Assembly (NCBI GenBank): GCA_016234445.1
Contig: JACRBT010000001.1
Coordinates: 248,001-312,000 of the forward strand
Source of the DNA: Chloroflexota bacterium
GTDB lineage: Bacteria; Chloroflexota; Dehalococcoidia; Tepidiformales; Tepidiformaceae
Length of the DNA: 64,000 nucleotides
Reading direction: 5' to 3'
Shown here in pieces: positions 3,855 through 63,531 of this stretch (position 1 is its first letter; the number at the start of each line of letters is the position of its first letter). Made by a program: the position numbers and the translations under genes. The notes beneath the pieces are model-generated. The model had not been told where the DNA came from. It was given only the letters and a program-made list of their open reading frames with translations, and made no database searches.

Positions 3855-4781
3855 GTGGAGAACACGGACCCTCTTTCGGACGGCGACATCCCCGCCGAAG
3901 CATCACCTGAGACGGAGCTTGCGCCTGAACCCGTTGCGGCCCAGCCGGCGACTCTTCGTCGTCAGCCGGCGTGGAGCTACTTCCTCACGCCGATCGCGGT
4001 GGTGATCGGGTCGGTCATCATTGCCGGGGCCATCTGGTACACCGACGACGACCCGCCCGCCAGCGCCGCTGACACCCACGCGGCGTCCATGGCCGGGGAC
4101 GAGAGCGGCGCCGGGATGTCCGTGGCGCCGACCGTCGCCCCATCGTCCTCGGGGGCGACGACGATGCTGGCGACCCTGCTCGCGTATGCGAAGCAACTGG
4201 GGCTGGACCAGGCCAAGTTCCAGCAGTGTCTCGGCAAGCAGGAGACCTCCCAGGCGATCTCGCGCCAGCTGCAACGGGGACAGGCGCTCGGGGTGAACGG
4301 CACACCCACCTTCTTCATCAACAACAAGCGCATCGTCGGCTCGCAACCGGCAGCGATCTTCGACGAAGTCATCGCCGCCGAGCTGAGGGGGAGCCCGACG
4401 ACGCTCGACGGCTACTCGGACGGGATCAGGCAGCTCGCGGCCACGAGCCCGCCACGGTTCGTTATCGAGGCCCAGAAGGTCGATGTCTCGGACGCGGCCA
4501 TCGAAGGGAACCCGGCGGCGCGGGTGATGATCGCGGAGTTCAGCGACTTCCAGTGCCCGTTTTGCCGCCGCTGGACGCAGGATTACCTGAGCAAGATTCG
4601 CGCCAACCTGGGGAACGACGTCGCGCTCGCGTTTCTCCACTTCCCGATCATCTCGATTCACCCGAACGCGGGGAACGCCTCCGCGGGCGCGGTGTGTGCC
4701 GGGGAGCAGGGGAAGTTCTGGCAGATGCACGACCTGCTGTTTTCGAACCAGGACACGTGGGCGAGCCTGAAGGCGAACTGA
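3855..4781 (+). CDS. Membrane-anchored DsbA-like thioredoxin-fold protein with circularly permuted domain order
   Basis: 308 residues from GTG 3855; the start is uncertain because the best ribosome site lies some 45 nt upstream. Residues 41-61 form one transmembrane segment after a Pro/Glu-rich cytoplasmic tail, followed by a low-complexity linker. Residues about 105-178 match the C-terminal half of DsbA-like domains: YAKQLGLD helix, FQQCL, then GVNGTPTFFINNKRIVG with cis-Pro151, and a final helix. Residues about 202-305 match the N-terminal half: AEFSDFQCPFCRRW with active-site Cys234 and Cys237, HFPI, and GKFWQMHDLLFSNQDTWASL. The protein then stops where a normal DsbA would continue into the half that is here placed first. 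The redox role is inferred from CPFC plus the cis-Pro loop. It could be a working permutant or a degraded tandem duplication. Confidence 0.75.
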   Translation: MENTDPLSDGDIPAEASPETELAPEPVAAQPATLRRQPAWSYFLTPIAVVIGSVIIAGAIWYTDDDPPASAADTHAASMAGDESGAGMSVAPTVAPSSSGATTMLATLLAYAKQLGLDQAKFQQCLGKQETSQAISRQLQRGQALGVNGTPTFFINNKRIVGSQPAAIFDEVIAAELRGSPTTLDGYSDGIRQLAATSPPRFVIEAQKVDVSDAAIEGNPAARVMIAEFSDFQCPFCRRWTQDYLSKIRANLGNDVALAFLHFPIISIHPNAGNASAGAVCAGEQGKFWQMHDLLFSNQDTWASLKAN

Positions 4782-5231: not shown

Positions 5232-6203
5232 TCAGTCGAAGAGCGCCAGCGCCTGCAACAGGGCATCGGCGGCGGCCTGTTCGTGGCGGGCAGCGCGGCG
5301 CAAGGCCATCGCCGCGGCCCGGCGAAGCCCTGGGTTCGCGACGTTGCCGTGGCCGCCGCTGGGAAAGGGGAACAGGGTCAGGAGGGGAGAGAGGGCCGTC
5401 GCCTCTTCCCTGAGGGCGGAGACCGCGGCGGCCAGTGGTCCCGCGAGATCGGGAAGCGCTTCGGCGACGTCGGCGAGGAAGGCGGCGCCGTCGACGCGGG
5501 CCGCCACGAGCACGGCGAGGGTGTAGGCGTTCCCGGCGCGGTCCACTTCCGTGTCGCCATCCATCGCCTCGGCCCAGGCGAGGAGCCCGGCGGTCCCACG
5601 CGGCTGGCCATCGGCGGGCCCATCGCGCCCGGCGAAACACTCGACTGCGGCGCAGAGGGCGCCAGCCACGGTGTCCACGGGGTCGAGCTCGAGCACACCG
5701 GCGGGAGCGAGGAGTTCGATGTCGCCCAGGCCGGAGGGCCAGTCGGCCCATGGCACGGCCGGGCCAAGGTCGCCGGTCAGCAGGTCGTCAACGAGGAATG
5801 CCGCGGCGCCAGCGTCATACCCGTAGACGACGGCGTGTTCGTGGAGGTGGAAGTCCCAGCCAATGAGGGGGCGGCCGGCGTCGAGGTGGGCGGTGGCCCA
5901 GGAAACGGCCTCGCCGCGCGCGGATTCGCCTTGGGGGCCTGGGACGGCGCGGGCCGAGAAGCGCTCCCAGTCGAGCCCGGTGCGGCCGTACCAGCGGGCC
6001 AGGGTCGCGCGGTCATAGTCGGTGGGGCCGCCCGGGAGCGCGGTGACCCCCTCGCGCGTCTGGAGGCAGAAGTGCCAGGCGTGGCCGCTGAGTCCCATGA
6101 CCGCGTGACGGGGAAGCGGCAGCCCCATGAGCCGGAGGACGCCTTCGAGGGCACCCGCGGCGCTGGTCCAGTTTGGGGCAATCCGGGCGCCTTCGATCTC
6201 CAT
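5232..6203 (-). CDS. Uncharacterised protein, possible BtrH/C39-like papain fold
   Basis: 323 residues without signal peptide or membrane segments. The N-terminal half has weak resemblance to BtrH-N/C39-type papain-fold proteins: a start helix (APNWTSAAGALEGVLRLMG), a GLSGHAWHFCL strand, and a His-containing LHEHAVVYGYDAG segment followed by LVDD. The position where the nucleophilic Cys is expected reads NWTSAAG, so catalysis by Cys looks lost or the resemblance is only structural. The C-terminal half is Ala-rich and helical. It sits upstream of the phosphatase on the same strand with a 42-nt gap. Function is unknown; the fold assignment is tentative. Confidence 0.5.
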   Translation of the reverse strand: MEIEGARIAPNWTSAAGALEGVLRLMGLPLPRHAVMGLSGHAWHFCLQTREGVTALPGGPTDYDRATLARWYGRTGLDWERFSARAVPGPQGESARGEAVSWATAHLDAGRPLIGWDFHLHEHAVVYGYDAGAAAFLVDDLLTGDLGPAVPWADWPSGLGDIELLAPAGVLELDPVDTVAGALCAAVECFAGRDGPADGQPRGTAGLLAWAEAMDGDTEVDRAGNAYTLAVLVAARVDGAAFLADVAEALPDLAGPLAAAVSALREEATALSPLLTLFPFPSGGHGNVANPGLRRAAAMALRRAARHEQAAADALLQALALFD

Positions 6204-8282: not shown

Positions 8283-10505
8283 CTACAACAGCGCTTCGTA
8301 GGCCTCGCGCAGGGGGTCGATGGAAGTCGCGATCGGGCCGAAGCTGAAGGCGGCCCCGGGCACGACCTTCCCCAGCCGGGTGAGGGGCACGCCGATCTCG
8401 GCGGCGAGGTCCTGGAGGCGGGCGGCGCCACCACCCTGGCGGAAGACGTCGGGCGCGATCGTGACGATGATCCGGCCCTGGGCCTCGCCGAAGAGCGCAG
8501 CATCGAGCCGGCCCGCGACCTCCGCGGAGCCTTCGAAGCCTAGCCCGCCGAGGATCGCCTTCTCGGCCAACGCGACGGCGAGGCCGCCCTCGGCGCAGTC
8601 ATGGGCGCTGAGCAGAAGGCCTTCCGCGTGGGCGCGGAGGACGAGGTCGTGGAGGCGCTTCTCCGCCGAGAGATCCACCGTCGGCAGCCCGGCGACCTGG
8701 CCGTGGACCGCCTCCAGGTATTCGCTGCCGCCGAGCGTGGCCGCCGGCTGGCGGAGAGGCTGGCCGAGGAGCCACGCCGTCGCGTCGGGGGTGGAAAAGG
8801 CCGACTTGAGGTGTTTCGAGACGTCGTCCATGAGTCCGAGCATGCCGATGACCGGGGTGGGGTAGATCGGGCGGCCTGCGGTTTCGTTGTAGAGGCTGAC
8901 GTTGCCGCTGACGACGGGTGTGGCGAAGGCGGCGCAGGCGTCCGCGATGCCGCGGATGGCGTGTTCGAGCGTGTAGTAGACCTCGAGCTTCTCAGGGTTG
9001 CCGAAGTTCAGGCAGTCGGTGACGGCGACGGGGGTGGCGCCGGTGCAGACGACGTTCCGGGCCGCTTCGGCGACGGCCACTGCGCCGCCGGTGTAAGGGT
9101 CGAGGTAACAGAGGCGCGGGTTGCAATCGGTGGTGATGGCGATGCCGCGCCCGGTGCCGGGGACGCGAAGGACGGCCGCATCGCCGCCGGGCCCGACCAC
9201 CGTGTTGTTCAGCACCTGGTGGTCGTATTGGCGAAAGACCCCGCGTTTGCTGGCGATGTTCGGGCGGGCGAGGAGTCGGAGCAGGGTCGCGGTTGCGTCG
9301 GCCGGCGCGAGGTCGGGAAGGGATGCGGGGTTGAACTGGTTCAGCTCCAGGAGCTCGGCCGGGCGAACGCCGCGGCGGCGGTATTGGGGCGGGTCGGTGG
9401 CGATCTGGACAGGAACCCGCGCGACCTCGTGGCCAGAGTCGAGGATCACGACCTCGTCGCCGCCGGTGACCTGGCCGATCTCCTCGCAGTGGAGCTCCCA
9501 GCGGCGGAAGAGGGCGGCGACGTCGTCCACATGCTCGCGCTTCGCGATGACCAGCATCCGCTCCTGGCTTTCGCTGAGCATGATCTCGTACGGGCGCATC
9601 CCCTCTTCGCGGCGGGGCACCTTCGCGAGTTCGAGCACGGCGCCGGAGTCGCCTTTCGCGCAGCATTCGACGACGGAGCTGGTGAGGCCGGCGGCGCCGA
9701 GGTCCTGGAGGCCGACGATCCAGTCGCGGTGCTCGGAGGCGAGTTCGAAACAGGCCTCCATCAGGAGCTTTTCCATGAAGGGGTTGCCAACCTGGACGGC
9801 CGGGCGCATCTCTTCGAAGCGGGCCTCGGGGTCGGTCCGGCTGGCGAGGCCGCTGGCGCCGTGGATGCCGTCGCGGCCGGTGTCGGCGCCGACGAGGAGG
9901 AGCGGATTGCCTTCGCCGGTGGCGCGGGCACTGAGGAGCTTCGCGGTCTCGGCAATCCCGACGCACATCGCGTTCACGAGGGGGTTTCCGTTGTAGGCTT
10001 CGGCGAAAAAGATCTCGCCGCCGACGGTGGGGATGCCCAGGCAGTTCCCGTAGCCGCCGATGCCGCCGACGACGCCGTCGAAGAGGTAGCGATTCTGGGG
10101 GTCGTCCGGGGGGCCGAAGCGGAGCGAGTCGAGGATGGCGACGGGGTAGGCGCCCATTGCGAAGATGTCGCGGACGATGCCGCCGACGCCGGTCGCGGCG
10201 CCTTCGTGCGGTTCGATGGCCGAAGGGTGGTTGTGCGACTCGACCTTCATGACGACGCAACGGCCGTCGCCGATGTCGATGGCGCCGGCGTTTTCGGCGC
10301 CCACCTTCGTCAGGATCTGGTCGCCGCCGGTGGGGAAGTAGCTGAAGAGCGGGCGGCTGTTCTTGTAGCCGCAGTGCTCGCTCCAGAGGGAGCCGAACAT
10401 GCCGAGTTCGACCTCGAGGGGTTCGCGGCCAAGGCGCTGGACGAGGACCGCGTATTCCTCGCGGCTGAGGGCGACGGCGTCGAGGGCTTCCTGGTCAACT
10501 GGCAT
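8283..10505 (-). CDS. purL: Phosphoribosylformylglycinamidine synthase subunit PurL
   Basis: 740 residues from the ATG at 10505; another in-frame ATG at 10523 would add six residues. This is the small-type PurL, which with PurQ and PurS converts FGAR to FGAM using ATP and glutamine-derived ammonia. The N-terminus LSREEYAVLVQRLGREP and the SLWSEHCGYKNS motif (substrate/ATP region) are diagnostic. Later segments include VKVESHNHPSAIEPHEGAATGVGG-type sequence, LQDLGAAGL and SAHDCAEGGLAVALAE. PurQ is encoded 2.3 kb upstream on the same strand but separated by two DUF4389 genes. purS is not recognisable in the window. Confidence 0.96.
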   Translation of the reverse strand: MPVDQEALDAVALSREEYAVLVQRLGREPLEVELGMFGSLWSEHCGYKNSRPLFSYFPTGGDQILTKVGAENAGAIDIGDGRCVVMKVESHNHPSAIEPHEGAATGVGGIVRDIFAMGAYPVAILDSLRFGPPDDPQNRYLFDGVVGGIGGYGNCLGIPTVGGEIFFAEAYNGNPLVNAMCVGIAETAKLLSARATGEGNPLLLVGADTGRDGIHGASGLASRTDPEARFEEMRPAVQVGNPFMEKLLMEACFELASEHRDWIVGLQDLGAAGLTSSVVECCAKGDSGAVLELAKVPRREEGMRPYEIMLSESQERMLVIAKREHVDDVAALFRRWELHCEEIGQVTGGDEVVILDSGHEVARVPVQIATDPPQYRRRGVRPAELLELNQFNPASLPDLAPADATATLLRLLARPNIASKRGVFRQYDHQVLNNTVVGPGGDAAVLRVPGTGRGIAITTDCNPRLCYLDPYTGGAVAVAEAARNVVCTGATPVAVTDCLNFGNPEKLEVYYTLEHAIRGIADACAAFATPVVSGNVSLYNETAGRPIYPTPVIGMLGLMDDVSKHLKSAFSTPDATAWLLGQPLRQPAATLGGSEYLEAVHGQVAGLPTVDLSAEKRLHDLVLRAHAEGLLLSAHDCAEGGLAVALAEKAILGGLGFEGSAEVAGRLDAALFGEAQGRIIVTIAPDVFRQGGGAARLQDLAAEIGVPLTRLGKVVPGAAFSFGPIATSIDPLREAYEALL

Positions 10506-10641: not shown

Positions 10642-11997
10642 CTAGTCGAGGGTGAACCTGGCGCCCCCCGCGGCGCTGAAGGGCAGCTTGAGCCGCACCT
10701 CGACCGGTGTCGCGCCGTCGGGGACGGCGAAGACGGCGCGCAGCGTCACCGTCGCGTGGTCTTCGACCTTGGCCGGGGCCGCGATGCCGCCGACGACGAA
10801 CAGTTCCGCGCTCGTGCTGTGGGTCTCGCCGTCCTCTTGGTACTTCAGCTTGAGCCCGTCGGGGTCAATGGTGACGGTCCGATCGCTGGAGTTGCGCAGG
10901 GTCCATTCGAAGACGACGAGGTGCTGGCCGCGGCCACCGGTGAGGATGGGAGCGAGGTTGTCGCCGGGGTCATAGGCGCGAGCGAGGGTGAGCGTGAAGG
11001 TCAGTCCCTCAGCGAACCCGTGGTAGTCGATCGTTGCGGTGGCGCGCCCGGCGACGAGACGGTCGTAGTCGACGCTGGCATCGTCGGTTTCGAAGCTCAG
11101 CGCAATGGCGAAGCCTATGAAGACCGCGAACAGCGCGGCCGCGAGCCAGCCGATAATGCCGCAGATCACGGTGGTGGTGTGCGACGCGGGGCCGGCGTCC
11201 TCGGAGAGCGAGAAGGGCGGGAAGCGGTCGTTGAAGGAGGCGAAGTAGCCAAGGACGCGGAACTGCCATCGGGCCGCGCCGACCACGAACGCGAACATCC
11301 CCCGGGGGTACGTCCCGGTGAAGAGGATGGCGAACCACGACAGGACGACCACGACGACGACGGCAATCGCGAGGAGCGAGAGCACGACCATGTGGGGGAT
11401 AAGGAGCGCGGCCTTCCAGAAGAACACGCGCCAGCGGCTGAGATGGCCATCGGGAGGGTCGTCGTACTCGAGGGTGACGGGGCTCCGGTCGCGGTCGAAG
11501 CTGGGGTAGCGATCGGTGAGGAGGGCGCCGTAGGCCCAGGCCCGGGCGTTGAAGGCGAGGCCCCCGGAGGTCGCGGCGAAGAGCCAGCGTGGGTAGCGCC
11601 GCCGGAGGAAGACGGTGAGCCAGCCAGCGGTCAGCGCCGCCGATATCACGCCATTGACGAGGTAGAGGAAGACCCAGACCGGGATCAGGAGCGGGAGACG
11701 GAGGAGCGTCTTCCAGCGGCTGAGGCGTTCGGGGTAGTCGACCTCGAACCGCATGGGGTAGGGGACAGGCGGCGGGGCCGGTGGAGGTGGTGGGGGCCAG
11801 CTTGCAGGCGCCACGGGTGTTTCTTGAGCAGGGCCGGAGGGCGTGTCGGCGTCCGGAAGCGGCGGGCTATCCCCGGCGGGGGGAGTTACCTCGCCGCCGG
11901 GCGTGAGGCTCTCTGACGTGCGCTGGGGCTTGTCCCGGCCGGGAACGTCGGGCAGGCGGGCCCCACCGTAGTCGGGCGAGAAGGGGTCGTTGCTCAA
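10642..11997 (-). CDS. DUF4389 double-domain membrane protein with C-terminal DUF4352-like domain
   Basis: 451 residues from TTG 11997 with AGGTGA just upstream. Residues 1-75 are a disordered Pro-rich cytoplasmic tail (SWPPPPPPAPPPVPYP). Two DUF4389 modules follow (about 76-170 and 175-265), each with paired transmembrane helices and the family pattern ...DYPERLSRWKTLLRLPLLIPVW..., RRRYPRWLF..., YGALLTDRYPSF. A further transmembrane helix (about 280-300) leads to a beta-rich extracytoplasmic domain (FAEGLTFTLTLARAY..., LVVFEWTLRNSSDRTVTIDP) resembling DUF4352, often seen on bacterial surface lipoproteins. The function of DUF4389 is unknown. It lies between purQ and purL with a smaller DUF4389 gene upstream. 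Confidence 0.78.
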   Translation of the reverse strand: MSNDPFSPDYGGARLPDVPGRDKPQRTSESLTPGGEVTPPAGDSPPLPDADTPSGPAQETPVAPASWPPPPPPAPPPVPYPMRFEVDYPERLSRWKTLLRLPLLIPVWVFLYLVNGVISAALTAGWLTVFLRRRYPRWLFAATSGGLAFNARAWAYGALLTDRYPSFDRDRSPVTLEYDDPPDGHLSRWRVFFWKAALLIPHMVVLSLLAIAVVVVVVLSWFAILFTGTYPRGMFAFVVGAARWQFRVLGYFASFNDRFPPFSLSEDAGPASHTTTVICGIIGWLAAALFAVFIGFAIALSFETDDASVDYDRLVAGRATATIDYHGFAEGLTFTLTLARAYDPGDNLAPILTGGRGQHLVVFEWTLRNSSDRTVTIDPDGLKLKYQEDGETHSTSAELFVVGGIAAPAKVEDHATVTLRAVFAVPDGATPVEVRLKLPFSAAGGARFTLD

Positions 11998-12051
11998 CGT
12001 TCACCTGCCTGGTTGGCGGCGATCCTTGCCGCGGTCGCCGCCACCCTGCCG

Positions 12052-12639
12052 CTAACCCATCTGGAAGGGCGGGTATTGGTCCGTCATGAGCAGGCCGTAG
12101 CCCTGGACGCGAGCGCCCCACTTCATCACGTTGGCGACGAAGTCGTGGAGCCCGGCCGGCGCGGTGCCGGTGATCAGCGCCACGATCCACATGATGACCA
12201 CGCACACGTACGCCACGATGCCGAGGAGGGCGAGCACGATCACGTGGGGGATGAGCATGATGATGCGGAAGAAGACCGTCAGCCGGTTGCGCCCGGAGAG
12301 CTGCGGGTCAACGTTGAGCCGGATGGGGTAGTCGCGAACGTCTTCCAACGAGAACGGCGGGTATTTGTCGGTGAGAAGCGCGTAGTAGCCGAAGGCCCGG
12401 ACTTGCCAGCGGAGTACGCCGACCGCGAAGTTCATCAATCCCTGGGGATAGTTGCCGGTGATGAGGATCACGATCCAGGCGATCAGCGTGACCACTTCGA
12501 GGGCGATGTTCAGCAGGTAGATGACGATGTAGTGCGGGATCGCATAAAGGATGCGGAGGAGGACGCTCAGGCGGTTTTGCGCGGCCGCCGGGTCAACCTC
12601 CAGGCTGATTGGATAGGACGCTGCCATGCCCGAACTCAT
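12052..12639 (-). CDS. DUF4389 double-domain membrane protein
   Basis: 195 residues from ATG 12639, with GGAG about 10 nt upstream; a second ATG four codons on is possible. It consists of two tandem DUF4389 units. Each starts with a YPI.L.VDP beta strand, then RLSVLLRILYAIPHYIVIYLL-type amphipathic and hydrophobic helices, and ends YYALLTDKYPPF or YGLLMTDQYPPF. About four membrane helices are predicted. It lacks the Pro-rich tail and DUF4352 domain of its downstream paralogue, which starts 54 nt away. No biochemical role is established for this domain. Confidence 0.78.
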   Translation of the reverse strand: MSSGMAASYPISLEVDPAAAQNRLSVLLRILYAIPHYIVIYLLNIALEVVTLIAWIVILITGNYPQGLMNFAVGVLRWQVRAFGYYALLTDKYPPFSLEDVRDYPIRLNVDPQLSGRNRLTVFFRIIMLIPHVIVLALLGIVAYVCVVIMWIVALITGTAPAGLHDFVANVMKWGARVQGYGLLMTDQYPPFQMG

Positions 12640-12813
12640 CCTGGGACGTCTCCGAGGCCGGGCGTCTGCTGCGCCCCGCGCCAGCTTTCCCTCGGTCAGG
12701 TTCCCCCTGACGGGCGGACTATAGCGCGGTCAGGTCCACAATGCGAGACCTTCACGGATAGGAGATTCCCTGATCTTCCCGGCGCCTGCTGGCCCGGGGA
12801 CGTGCGAGGCGCC

Positions 12814-13518
12814 CTATCCTACCAGTAGCCCGAGGCCTTCACGGATGAGCGACTCCCAGATGCGGTTGCCGTCGGTGCCGCCGACGAGGTCTTCGCCGGC
12901 GCGCTCCGGGTGCGGCATCATCCCGAGGACGTTGCCGCGGCGGTTGATGATCCCGGCGATGTTGCGGGCACTGCCGTTCGGATTCGACTCCGGGGTCACC
13001 TGGCCTGCGGCGTCGCAGTAGCGGAAAACGACGCGGCCGTCCGCCTCGAGCTGGTCGAGGGTGGCGTCGTCGGCATAGTAGTTGCCGTCACCGTGGCTGA
13101 TGGGGATGTGGATGACGGAACCTGCGGAAATGCCTGCCGCCCAGGGGGTCTCGCCGCCTTCGCGCCGCAAGTAGGTCCATTGGCAGCGGAACTGGAGGCT
13201 CTGGTTTCGAATCAGGGCGCCGGGGAGCAGGTGGCTTTCGCAGAGGACCTGAAAACCGTTGCAGATGCCGATGACCGGACCGCCGGCCTCGGCGAAGGTC
13301 GCGACCGCCTCCATCACGGGCGAAAAGCGGGCGATCGCGCCGCAGCGGAGGTAGTCGCCGTAGGAGAACCCGCCGGGGAGGACGACGGCGTCGTAGCCGC
13401 TGAGGTCGGTCTCGCGGTGCCAGAGGATCTCGGCCTGTTGTTCGAGGACGTTGTGAAGGACGTGGTAGGTGTCGCGGTCGCTCCAGGTGCCGGGGAAACG
13501 GATGATGGCGAAGCGCAT
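12814..13518 (-). CDS. purQ: Phosphoribosylformylglycinamidine synthase subunit PurQ
   Basis: 234 residues. PurQ is the glutaminase subunit that feeds ammonia to PurL. The class I amidotransferase nucleophile lies in GVIGICNGFQVL-like sequence (Cys86 region), and the His-Glu pair lies in MMPHPERAGED near the C-terminus. The N-terminus FAIIRFPGTWSDRD and the VLPGGFSYGDYLRCGAIA segment are typical. The start codon is ATG 13518. It is the first pur gene of the cluster, followed 175 nt downstream by the two DUF4389 genes and then purL. The upstream neighbour is the PgpH-like gene on the same strand, 61 nt away. Confidence 0.96.
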   Translation of the reverse strand: MRFAIIRFPGTWSDRDTYHVLHNVLEQQAEILWHRETDLSGYDAVVLPGGFSYGDYLRCGAIARFSPVMEAVATFAEAGGPVIGICNGFQVLCESHLLPGALIRNQSLQFRCQWTYLRREGGETPWAAGISAGSVIHIPISHGDGNYYADDATLDQLEADGRVVFRYCDAAGQVTPESNPNGSARNIAGIINRRGNVLGMMPHPERAGEDLVGGTDGNRIWESLIREGLGLLVG

Positions 13519-38606: not shown

Positions 38607-39656
38607 TTAGCGAAGATTGAGGTGTGCCTCGCCGGCGCGGGCGCGCCCGATGCGCCAGAACGGGTGGTGGGACGCCGCGGCGGCGGCTTCGAGCGCGGCG
38701 GCCTTCCGGGGGGAGACCGCGATCAGCAGGCCGCCCGATGTCTGGGGATCGAAGACGAGGTCGCGCAGTTCCCCGGGGCGGCCGGCTGCAAAGGTGGCGT
38801 TCGCGCCCACCCATTCGCGATTGCGGCCTGCCCCGCCAGTCATGATCCCGGCCGCGGCACATTCGCGCGCCCCCGGGAGGAGGGGGACGGCGGCGAGGTC
38901 GACGTCCACGGCCACGCCGGAGCGCTCGGCCATCTCCCAGAGGTGGCCGCCGAGGCCGAAGCCGGTGATGTCGGTTGCGGCGCGGACGCCGGCGGCCCGG
39001 GCGATGTGCGCCGAGTGGCGGTTCAGCCGGAGCATCGACTCGATCGCGGCTTCGAGCCAGCCCGGTTCGGCGCGGCGGCTCTTCACGGCCGAGAGCACGA
39101 CGCCGGTGCCGAGCGGCTTCGAGAGGTAGAGGACGTCGCCCGGGCGGAGGCCGTCCTTCCGGAAGATGCGCCTGGGGTGGACCAGCCCGAGCACGCTCAG
39201 GCCGAACTTCGGCTCTTCGTCCCAGATGGTGTGTCCCCCGGCGATAACGGCGCCGGCCTCCGCGACTTTCGCCGCGGCCCCGCGGAGGATTTCGGTCTGG
39301 GTGGACGGCGGCAGGCCCTGGGGGAAGGCGGCGATGTTGAGTGCCAGTGCGACTTCGCCACCCATGGCGTAGACGTCGGACATCGCGTTCGCGGCGGCGA
39401 TAGCCCCGTACGTCCAGGGGTCGTCCACAAGGGGGGCGAAAAAGTCGAGCGTCGCCACCACCGCCGTCTTCGCGTTGATGCGATAGACGGCAGCGTCGTC
39501 CGCGACCCCGAGCCCGACCAGGAGATCAGGCTGGTTCGCGGGGTCCCAGAGACCGGCCAGCGGCGACAGCACCTGCGCCAGGGCACCAGGCCCCGCCTTG
39601 GATGCTCAGCCGCCGCATTCGGTCAGTTCGGTCAGGCGCACTTCCTCTCGCGTCAT
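38607..39656 (-). CDS. selD: Selenophosphate synthetase SelD, selenocysteine-containing (in-frame UGA)
   Basis: 349 residues if the UGA at 39608-39606 is read as Sec. ATG 39656 gives MTREEVRLTELTECGG-U-ASK. The motif CGGUASK matches the SelD catalytic loop: Cys14, Sec17, Lys20. Reading continues in frame through ALAQVLSPL into LGVADDAAVYRI and LDFFAPLVDDPWTYGAIAAANAMSDVYAMGG, the AIR-synthase-like ATP-binding core, and FGLGGHLWEMAE. SelD makes selenophosphate for Sec and selenouridine synthesis. Simple gene callers would start at GTG 39572 and drop the active site. A SECIS-like hairpin lies just after the UGA. selA, selB and selC are not in the window. The neighbour GT39 gene is downstream on the same strand. 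Confidence 0.93.
39579..39608 (-). promoter_or_regulatory. Candidate bacterial SECIS element in selD
   Basis: Read on the minus strand, the UGA (39608-39606) is followed after 10 nt by stem CGGGGC / GCCCUG (one G-U pair) closing a CUGGU loop at 39589-39585. A small apical loop containing GGU at about 17-21 nt after the UGA fits the bacterial SelB-binding hairpin. It has not been tested by folding. Confidence 0.6.
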
Positions 39657-39730: not shown

Positions 39731-40882
39731 ATGCCACGTTTCGATGTGATCGTCGTCGGCGCCGGGCCGGCCGGGAGCACCGCCGCGCGCGAACTCGCCG
39801 GGTCCGGGGCCAGGGTGCTGGTGGTCGACCGCGCCCAATTCCCGCGCTACAAAGCCTGCGGTGGCGGCATCCCCCAGCGGACGGAGCGGATGCTCCCCTT
39901 CCCCATCGACAGCGTCGTCGAGGACTCCGTGCACCTCCTGGACGTGGCTTATCGCGGGGGGATGCGGTTCCAGCGCGACTCGGAGGCCCCATTCGCGCAC
40001 ATGGTCATGCGCGACCGTTTCGACGACCTCCTGCTCTCCCACGCGAAGGCCGCGGGCGCGGAGTTTCGCCCGGGGACGACGGTGCGCGCACTTGAGCAAC
40101 GGGGCGACGGTGTCCGCGTGACGGCCGACGGGTTCAAGGCGGAAGCGAGCTTCCTGGTCTGTGCCGACGGAGCCCACTCGCCCGTGGGAAAGATGGCGGG
40201 GCTGGGCGCGGGGATCGCCGAGTGCGCGGCCTGGGAGGTGGAGGTGAGCGCGCCACCGGCAGCGTTACGCCGCTACCGCTCGACGGCGCTGATAGAACTG
40301 GGCTACCGCCCGTGGGGCTATGCCTGGCTCTTCCCGAAGGCGAACAACCTGTCGATCGGCATCGTCGTTCCGCCCGGGCAGGCGGGCCGGATGAAAGACT
40401 ACGTGCGCGCCTACCTGAGGCGGCTCGGGCTGGAGAACGCGCCCACCGAGATCGCGAGGGGCCACAAGATCCGCTTCCGGCGCGGGAGCGAGCCGATCGC
40501 CGGGGGCCGCGCGCTCCTCGCCGGCGACGCGGCCGGGCTGGCTGACGAATTCACGGAGGAAGGGATCGGCTACGCGGTGCAGTCGGGGCGGCTCGCGGCC
40601 CGGAACGTCCTCCGCGCGCTCCACGGAGACGGCGGCCTGGCACGGTACGAACGCGACATCGACGCCGAGATCATGCCGGAACTTCGGGCTGCGCGGCTGA
40701 CCGGCTTCATGTTCTACGGGATGCTGCGGCACGTACCGCGGCCCTGGATGTTCGCCGCCGGGCACTTCCCGCCGCTCTGGGATGCCTTCTTCGCGGTCCA
40801 GCGGGGTGAGTCGACCTACGCCCGGGAAGTGGCACGGGTCCCGCTGCTCCCCGCCCTGGCCGCGAAGATGGTGCACGACTGA
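39731..40882 (+). CDS. Geranylgeranyl reductase family FAD-dependent oxidoreductase
   Basis: 383 residues from ATG 39731. FAD dinucleotide motif VIVVGAGPAGSTAARELAGSG at the start, then KACGGGIPQRT (the conserved PXXYXXCGGG-like block), and the GDAAGLADEFTEEGIGYAVQSGRLAA flavin/C-terminal motif. These define the geranylgeranyl reductase family, which saturates isoprenoid chains of quinones, carotenoids or lipids. The substrate here is not determined. Its stop overlaps the nth start by one base. Divergent from selD across 74 bp. Confidence 0.88.
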   Translation: MPRFDVIVVGAGPAGSTAARELAGSGARVLVVDRAQFPRYKACGGGIPQRTERMLPFPIDSVVEDSVHLLDVAYRGGMRFQRDSEAPFAHMVMRDRFDDLLLSHAKAAGAEFRPGTTVRALEQRGDGVRVTADGFKAEASFLVCADGAHSPVGKMAGLGAGIAECAAWEVEVSAPPAALRRYRSTALIELGYRPWGYAWLFPKANNLSIGIVVPPGQAGRMKDYVRAYLRRLGLENAPTEIARGHKIRFRRGSEPIAGGRALLAGDAAGLADEFTEEGIGYAVQSGRLAARNVLRALHGDGGLARYERDIDAEIMPELRAARLTGFMFYGMLRHVPRPWMFAAGHFPPLWDAFFAVQRGESTYAREVARVPLLPALAAKMVHD

Positions 40883-63384: not shown

Positions 63385-63531
63385 CTGCCGGGCGGCGAAT
63401 CAGTTTGTGAAGGATACGCTGGAGACGCCGTCCCCGATGGCTGCCATGGGGGCGCGGCGAAGCTTCAGGGAAAGATAACGCTTCCGGGCGTCGCACGGGA
63501 ATCGGGCAACGCCCGGAGCGGCAAGGACGGT

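Follow-up and report, generated by a model that had tools for sequence, protein, structure and literature searches.

An in-frame UGA at the active-site position of a Chloroflexota selD gene and candidate SECIS hairpins downstream of it

The window analysed here, a 64,000-nucleotide stretch from a Chloroflexota bacterium (contig JACRBT010000001.1, positions 248,001 to 312,000), carries a selD gene on its minus strand. The reading frame begins with ATG 39656 (minus strand) and runs through MTREEVRLTELTECGG, the TGA at 39608-39606 and ASKAGPGALAQVL, after which it stays open to the TAA at 38607. The features of the locus are as follows.

38607..39656, minus strand: selD, 349 codons if the UGA is counted as Sec, ending in TAA (translation, TIGR00476, PF00586 and PF02769)
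39606..39608, minus strand: in-frame UGA, selD codon 17, where the catalytic Cys or Sec stands (GG-U-ASK)
39597..39599, minus strand: AAG, Lys20 of the UxxK motif, invariant among 19 aligned sequences (alignment A1)
39579..39595, minus strand: hairpin H1, the hairpin of the earlier note, stem CGGGGC/GCCCUG, its CUGGU loop 17-21 nt past the UGA
39562..39579, minus strand: hairpin H2, GGCGCAG-GUG-CUG-U-CGCC, with its apex 34-36 nt past the UGA; the strongest candidate for the SECIS
39570..39572, minus strand: GUG, at once the apical loop of H2 and the start codon of a 321-aa open reading frame in the standard code

A gene for an FAD-dependent oxidoreductase (window 39731-40882, plus strand) lies divergent from selD. 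By tblastn the same gene stands beside selD in 9 of 29 other relatives' loci and in locus L060, a count from which short loci can hide further cases.

With the UGA counted as a residue, the 349-aa product scored 367 bits against the TIGR00476 selD profile (cut-off 125) and matched both Pfam AIRS and AIRS_C (PF00586 and PF02769). The UGA lies in the context ECGG-U-ASK, at the site where other SelDs hold the catalytic Cys or Sec, and the N-terminal loop carries the (C/U)xxK motif as U17-A-S-K20. In the alignment the Cys residues of the solved SelD structures 3u0o and 2yye stand opposite the UGA residue, and Cys14, Gly16 and Lys20 are kept in 19 of 19 aligned SelDs. The earlier note had placed an in-frame UGA at the SelD active site; translation, profile score, the N-terminal alignment and the codon counts given below all bear out its coordinates and its description.

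The genome itself (3.54 Mb, 20 contigs, 97% complete) holds the genes of Sec decoding.

C16:107551-107644: tRNA-Sec, 66.9 bits (gathering score 47), anticodon tca (UCA) by ARAGORN
C10:153355: selA, 540.8 bits
C2:504516: selB, 317.5 bits

SECIS RNA is bound by the C-terminal winged-helix part of SelB, and the C-terminus of this SelB is a winged helix (SelB-wing_3, residues 566-611). That the organism decodes Sec, as the note had supposed, is supported by this gene content: selA, selB and selC, whose absence it had named as the evidence that would speak against it, are all there. The tRNA-Sec gene (locus L140, 8552-8645) is adjoined by a phage-type integrase gene (8728-9945, minus strand) and then by a cas3-like gene (10753-13452, plus strand); an integrated element may use it as its attachment site.

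The UGA was followed through 61 genomes, this one and 60 others. Of these, 44 gave a strong SelD match: in 42 it holds a single internal TGA, in G016 none, and in the last it is a fragment lacking the region. Among 30 codon-aligned selD genes the codon reads TGA in 29 and TGC in one (G016). selA exceeded its cut-off in 36 of the 42 UGA-SelD genomes and also in G016, and in none of the 17 that lack SelD. Six genomes combine a UGA-SelD with no selA above cut-off (G018, G023, G045, G051, G054 and G059), a point against the Sec-SelD reading. Five of them are 72-85% complete; G054, at 95% completeness, has a SelD match with one TGA and no selA match, and is unexplained. In a wider collection of genome contigs, the best 80 of 581 confirmed SelD loci were examined, and TGA was present in 64, Cys in 15, while one locus ends short of the site. 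Among the matches listed, MAGs of Chloroflexota and Dehalococcoidia are the closest named SelD relatives. Both selD and selA are present in most of the family; all six genomes of genus g13 (G012, G021, G026, G029, G032 and G034) are without the two genes, and have probably lost the Sec trait as a whole.

These counts bear directly on the idea that the UGA arose by a sequencing error, or that selD is decaying and has acquired a nonsense mutation there. Since the UGA is common to many separately assembled relatives (29 of 30 genes, 42 of 61 genomes), an error is not credible, and the remainder of the reading frame is both uninterrupted and conserved; we consider this explanation extremely improbable. 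The note had likewise held that reads giving a Cys codon would overturn its claim, and the evidence of the relatives points the other way. A second explanation takes the UGA as a true stop and lets a functional protein of 321 aa, without the N-terminal loop, start at GTG 39572. This open reading frame does exist, and a gene caller stopping at the UGA would begin there, as had been predicted. However, the codons upstream of it include the invariant Cys14, Gly16 and Lys20, the shortened form would be deprived of the Lys of the UxxK motif, the GTG doubles as the loop of H2, and the Sec machinery of the genome is complete. A start at GTG 39572 is therefore hardly to be believed. On the sequence evidence, selD is predicted with near certainty to encode a Sec-containing selenophosphate synthetase (Sec-SelD).

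The RNA downstream of the UGA is constrained beyond its coding function. In the codon alignment, synonymous sites just past the UGA are much more conserved than elsewhere in selD. Codons 17-31 of the aligned slice lie on average 0.281 above expectation, a value reached by 0 of 100000 random column sets, and the maximum for 15-codon windows past codon 40 is 0.119. When selD of this genome was recoded synonymously, only 4 of 1000 recodings of nt 25-48, the segment that holds H2, folded at least as well as the native sequence, as compared with 314 of 1000 for nt 1-27 and 206 of 1000 for nt 7-48. By the value for nt 1-27, H1 taken by itself is nothing out of the ordinary for this protein sequence. 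Row by row over nt 7-48, no more than 50 of 1000 recodings reached the native stability in 16 of 29 Sec rows; in the Cys row 302 did. A point against is that covariation is not clear in the narrow family alignment, where 62 of 500 shuffles reach it.

Two hairpins follow the UGA. The stem CGGGGC/GCCCUG with its CUGGU loop, reported earlier as lying 10 nt past the UGA, is indeed found at 39595-39579 (H1). According to the consulted part of PMC13188914, a bacterial SECIS has a small apical loop with a G within its first two positions, and its apex lies 16-37 nt past the UGA. H2, with the loop GUG at 34-36 nt, agrees with this model in both respects; H1 agrees in distance, and its CUGGU loop in this sequence has no G in the first two positions. 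We scored H2 as present when, at the fixed position, 6 or more of its 7 pairs could form and the apex read GU. Among the best 80 of 581 loci, it was present in 38 of 64 Sec-selD and 0 of 15 Cys-selD genes; elsewhere in these genes, 35 of 14061 in-frame control positions had it, and either hairpin occurred at 881 of the 14061. When the search was loosened to any hairpin with a GU apex, 43 of the 64 Sec and 3 of the 15 Cys genes had one. Over the 64 Sec-selD genes, H2 showed 56 cells in which both sides had changed with pairing kept, against a shuffled mean of 24.9 (0 of 500 shuffles reached it). Its covariation score was 0.343, and no slid register exceeded 0.176. The corresponding values for H1 were 18 cells, a shuffled mean of 7.9 (0 of 500) and a score of 0.152, and its register is ambiguous, as sliding by one also gave 18 cells with a score of 0.166. 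The two hairpins are distributed over these 64 genes as H2 alone in 24, both in 15, H1 alone in 14 and neither in 11. That 25 of the 64 are without H2 and 11 without either, by the definitions used here, is a further point against the Sec-SelD reading.

The SECIS might thus be H1 rather than H2, or SelB might need both. The apex of H1 falls within the distance given in the consulted part of PMC13188914, its compensatory changes exceed those of shuffled alignments, and 14 Sec-selD genes have it without H2. Moreover, in five of the six other UGA genes of this genome, described below, a GU-apex hairpin has its loop starting 20-23 nt past the UGA. Against this stand the missing G in the H1 loop, the recoding test, the weaker covariation and the 24 genes with H2 but no H1. 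We regard this alternative as unlikely, though a serious contender. Because the loop of H2 agrees with the model and that of H1 in distance only, and because recoding and covariation favour H2, we infer that H2 is the better SECIS candidate and H1 accessory or alternative to it. The earlier claim of a SECIS-like hairpin after the UGA holds in that a SECIS candidate exists; the hairpin it named, H1, is probably not the main one. For the specialist, the value lies in the comparison across genes, in which the candidate SECIS of selD occupies two hairpin positions, singly or together, the distal one missing from the 15 Cys forms examined.

A further and more speculative idea, which we would rather doubt than adopt, is that the SECIS of many selD genes is two-part, with a proximal H1 and a distal H2 bearing a GUN apex at a fixed place. 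If so, folding of H1 would take up about 15 nt, and the apex of H2 would then in effect stand about 19 nt from the UGA, near the 20-23 nt of the single-hairpin SECIS candidates in five of the six other UGA genes of this genome.

Taking H2 as the SECIS candidate, we propose that the ribosome at UGA 39608 would meet a hairpin just downstream, most likely H2 (39579-39562), and that SelB carrying Sec-tRNA-Sec would bind this putative SECIS, so that Sec would be inserted and termination avoided. The Sec in the N-terminal loop of the enzyme would then serve the predicted making of selenophosphate from selenide and ATP. Since selenophosphate is the selenium donor of SelA, SelD may supply the selenium for its own synthesis as well as for at least six other predicted selenoproteins.

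These are at least six other genes of this genome in which family searches and translation show a single in-frame UGA, each at a redox position. The first bases of the six UGAs, all in this genome (G000), are as follows.

L151: 314
L152: 1336
L153: 1036
L165: 1095 and 4652
L166: 872

Their contexts are FTGG-U, W-U-PFC, CVP-U, CEF-U and, twice, V-U-PWC. By family, one in-frame TGA is found in at least two AhpC/TSA (peroxiredoxin-like) genes (10 matches in this genome, 6 listed), in the single SelW-like match, in one of 8 AhpD-like matches and in two of 6 DsbA-like matches. In one frame of the window (3855-4781, plus strand) two partial DsbA-like domains stand in reversed order, the C-terminal part of one preceding the N-terminal part of another; they may come from two genes that were damaged or fused. 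As none of the 12 PF00384 matches in this genome has an internal stop, no Sec formate dehydrogenase was found. In the consulted part of Zhang et al. 2006 (PMC1794560), all Sec-decoding organisms without FdhA have a Sec-containing SelD, and the present genome fits this rule as far as PF00384 tells. Selenouridine synthase (ybbB) exceeded its cut-off in 0 of 61 genomes. The notion of SelD as the sole selenoprotein, in a self-serving Sec system without selenouridine synthase, was rejected because of the six further UGA genes.

Other searches for selenoprotein genes were less productive. None was evident among the open reading frames beside selA, selB and tRNA-Sec. Codon statistics flanking every TGA of the window gave 416 candidates. 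The top one, at 63402, is situated ahead of the point where a transporter binding protein apparently begins; another, at 5234, is an ordinary stop with the next gene behind it. selD itself ranked only second, and the method is therefore weak in this GC-rich genome. An Rfam scan of the window returned one tRNA and nothing else. An annotation that takes every UGA as a stop would truncate or overlook at least seven genes of this genome, selD among them.

A UGA or Sec at the SelD active site is already well known from many bacteria, and Sec-SelD with a UxxK motif occurs, for example, in Haemophilus influenzae and Aquifex aeolicus. The present gene resembles these in family, active-site motif, position of the UGA, genome-wide Sec machinery and a SECIS-like RNA within the coding region. 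It differs in nothing essential. Two consecutive hairpins follow its UGA; these tandem hairpins are the mildly interesting part, for which we make no claim of novelty. The evolution of Sec-SelD is a subject of PMC4561486, in the part consulted. The Cys forms, such as Escherichia coli SelD (3u0o), share family and, by sequence, fold, but have Cys in place of Sec, and H2 was absent from the 15 Cys-selD loci among the best 80 of 581. The SECIS of E. coli fdhF is a stem-loop past the UGA with GU in the apex and a bulged U on the 5' side. H2 is likewise a stem-loop past the UGA with a GU apex, but its apex lies 34-36 nt past the UGA with another hairpin between, and the bulged U of H2 sits on the 3' side.
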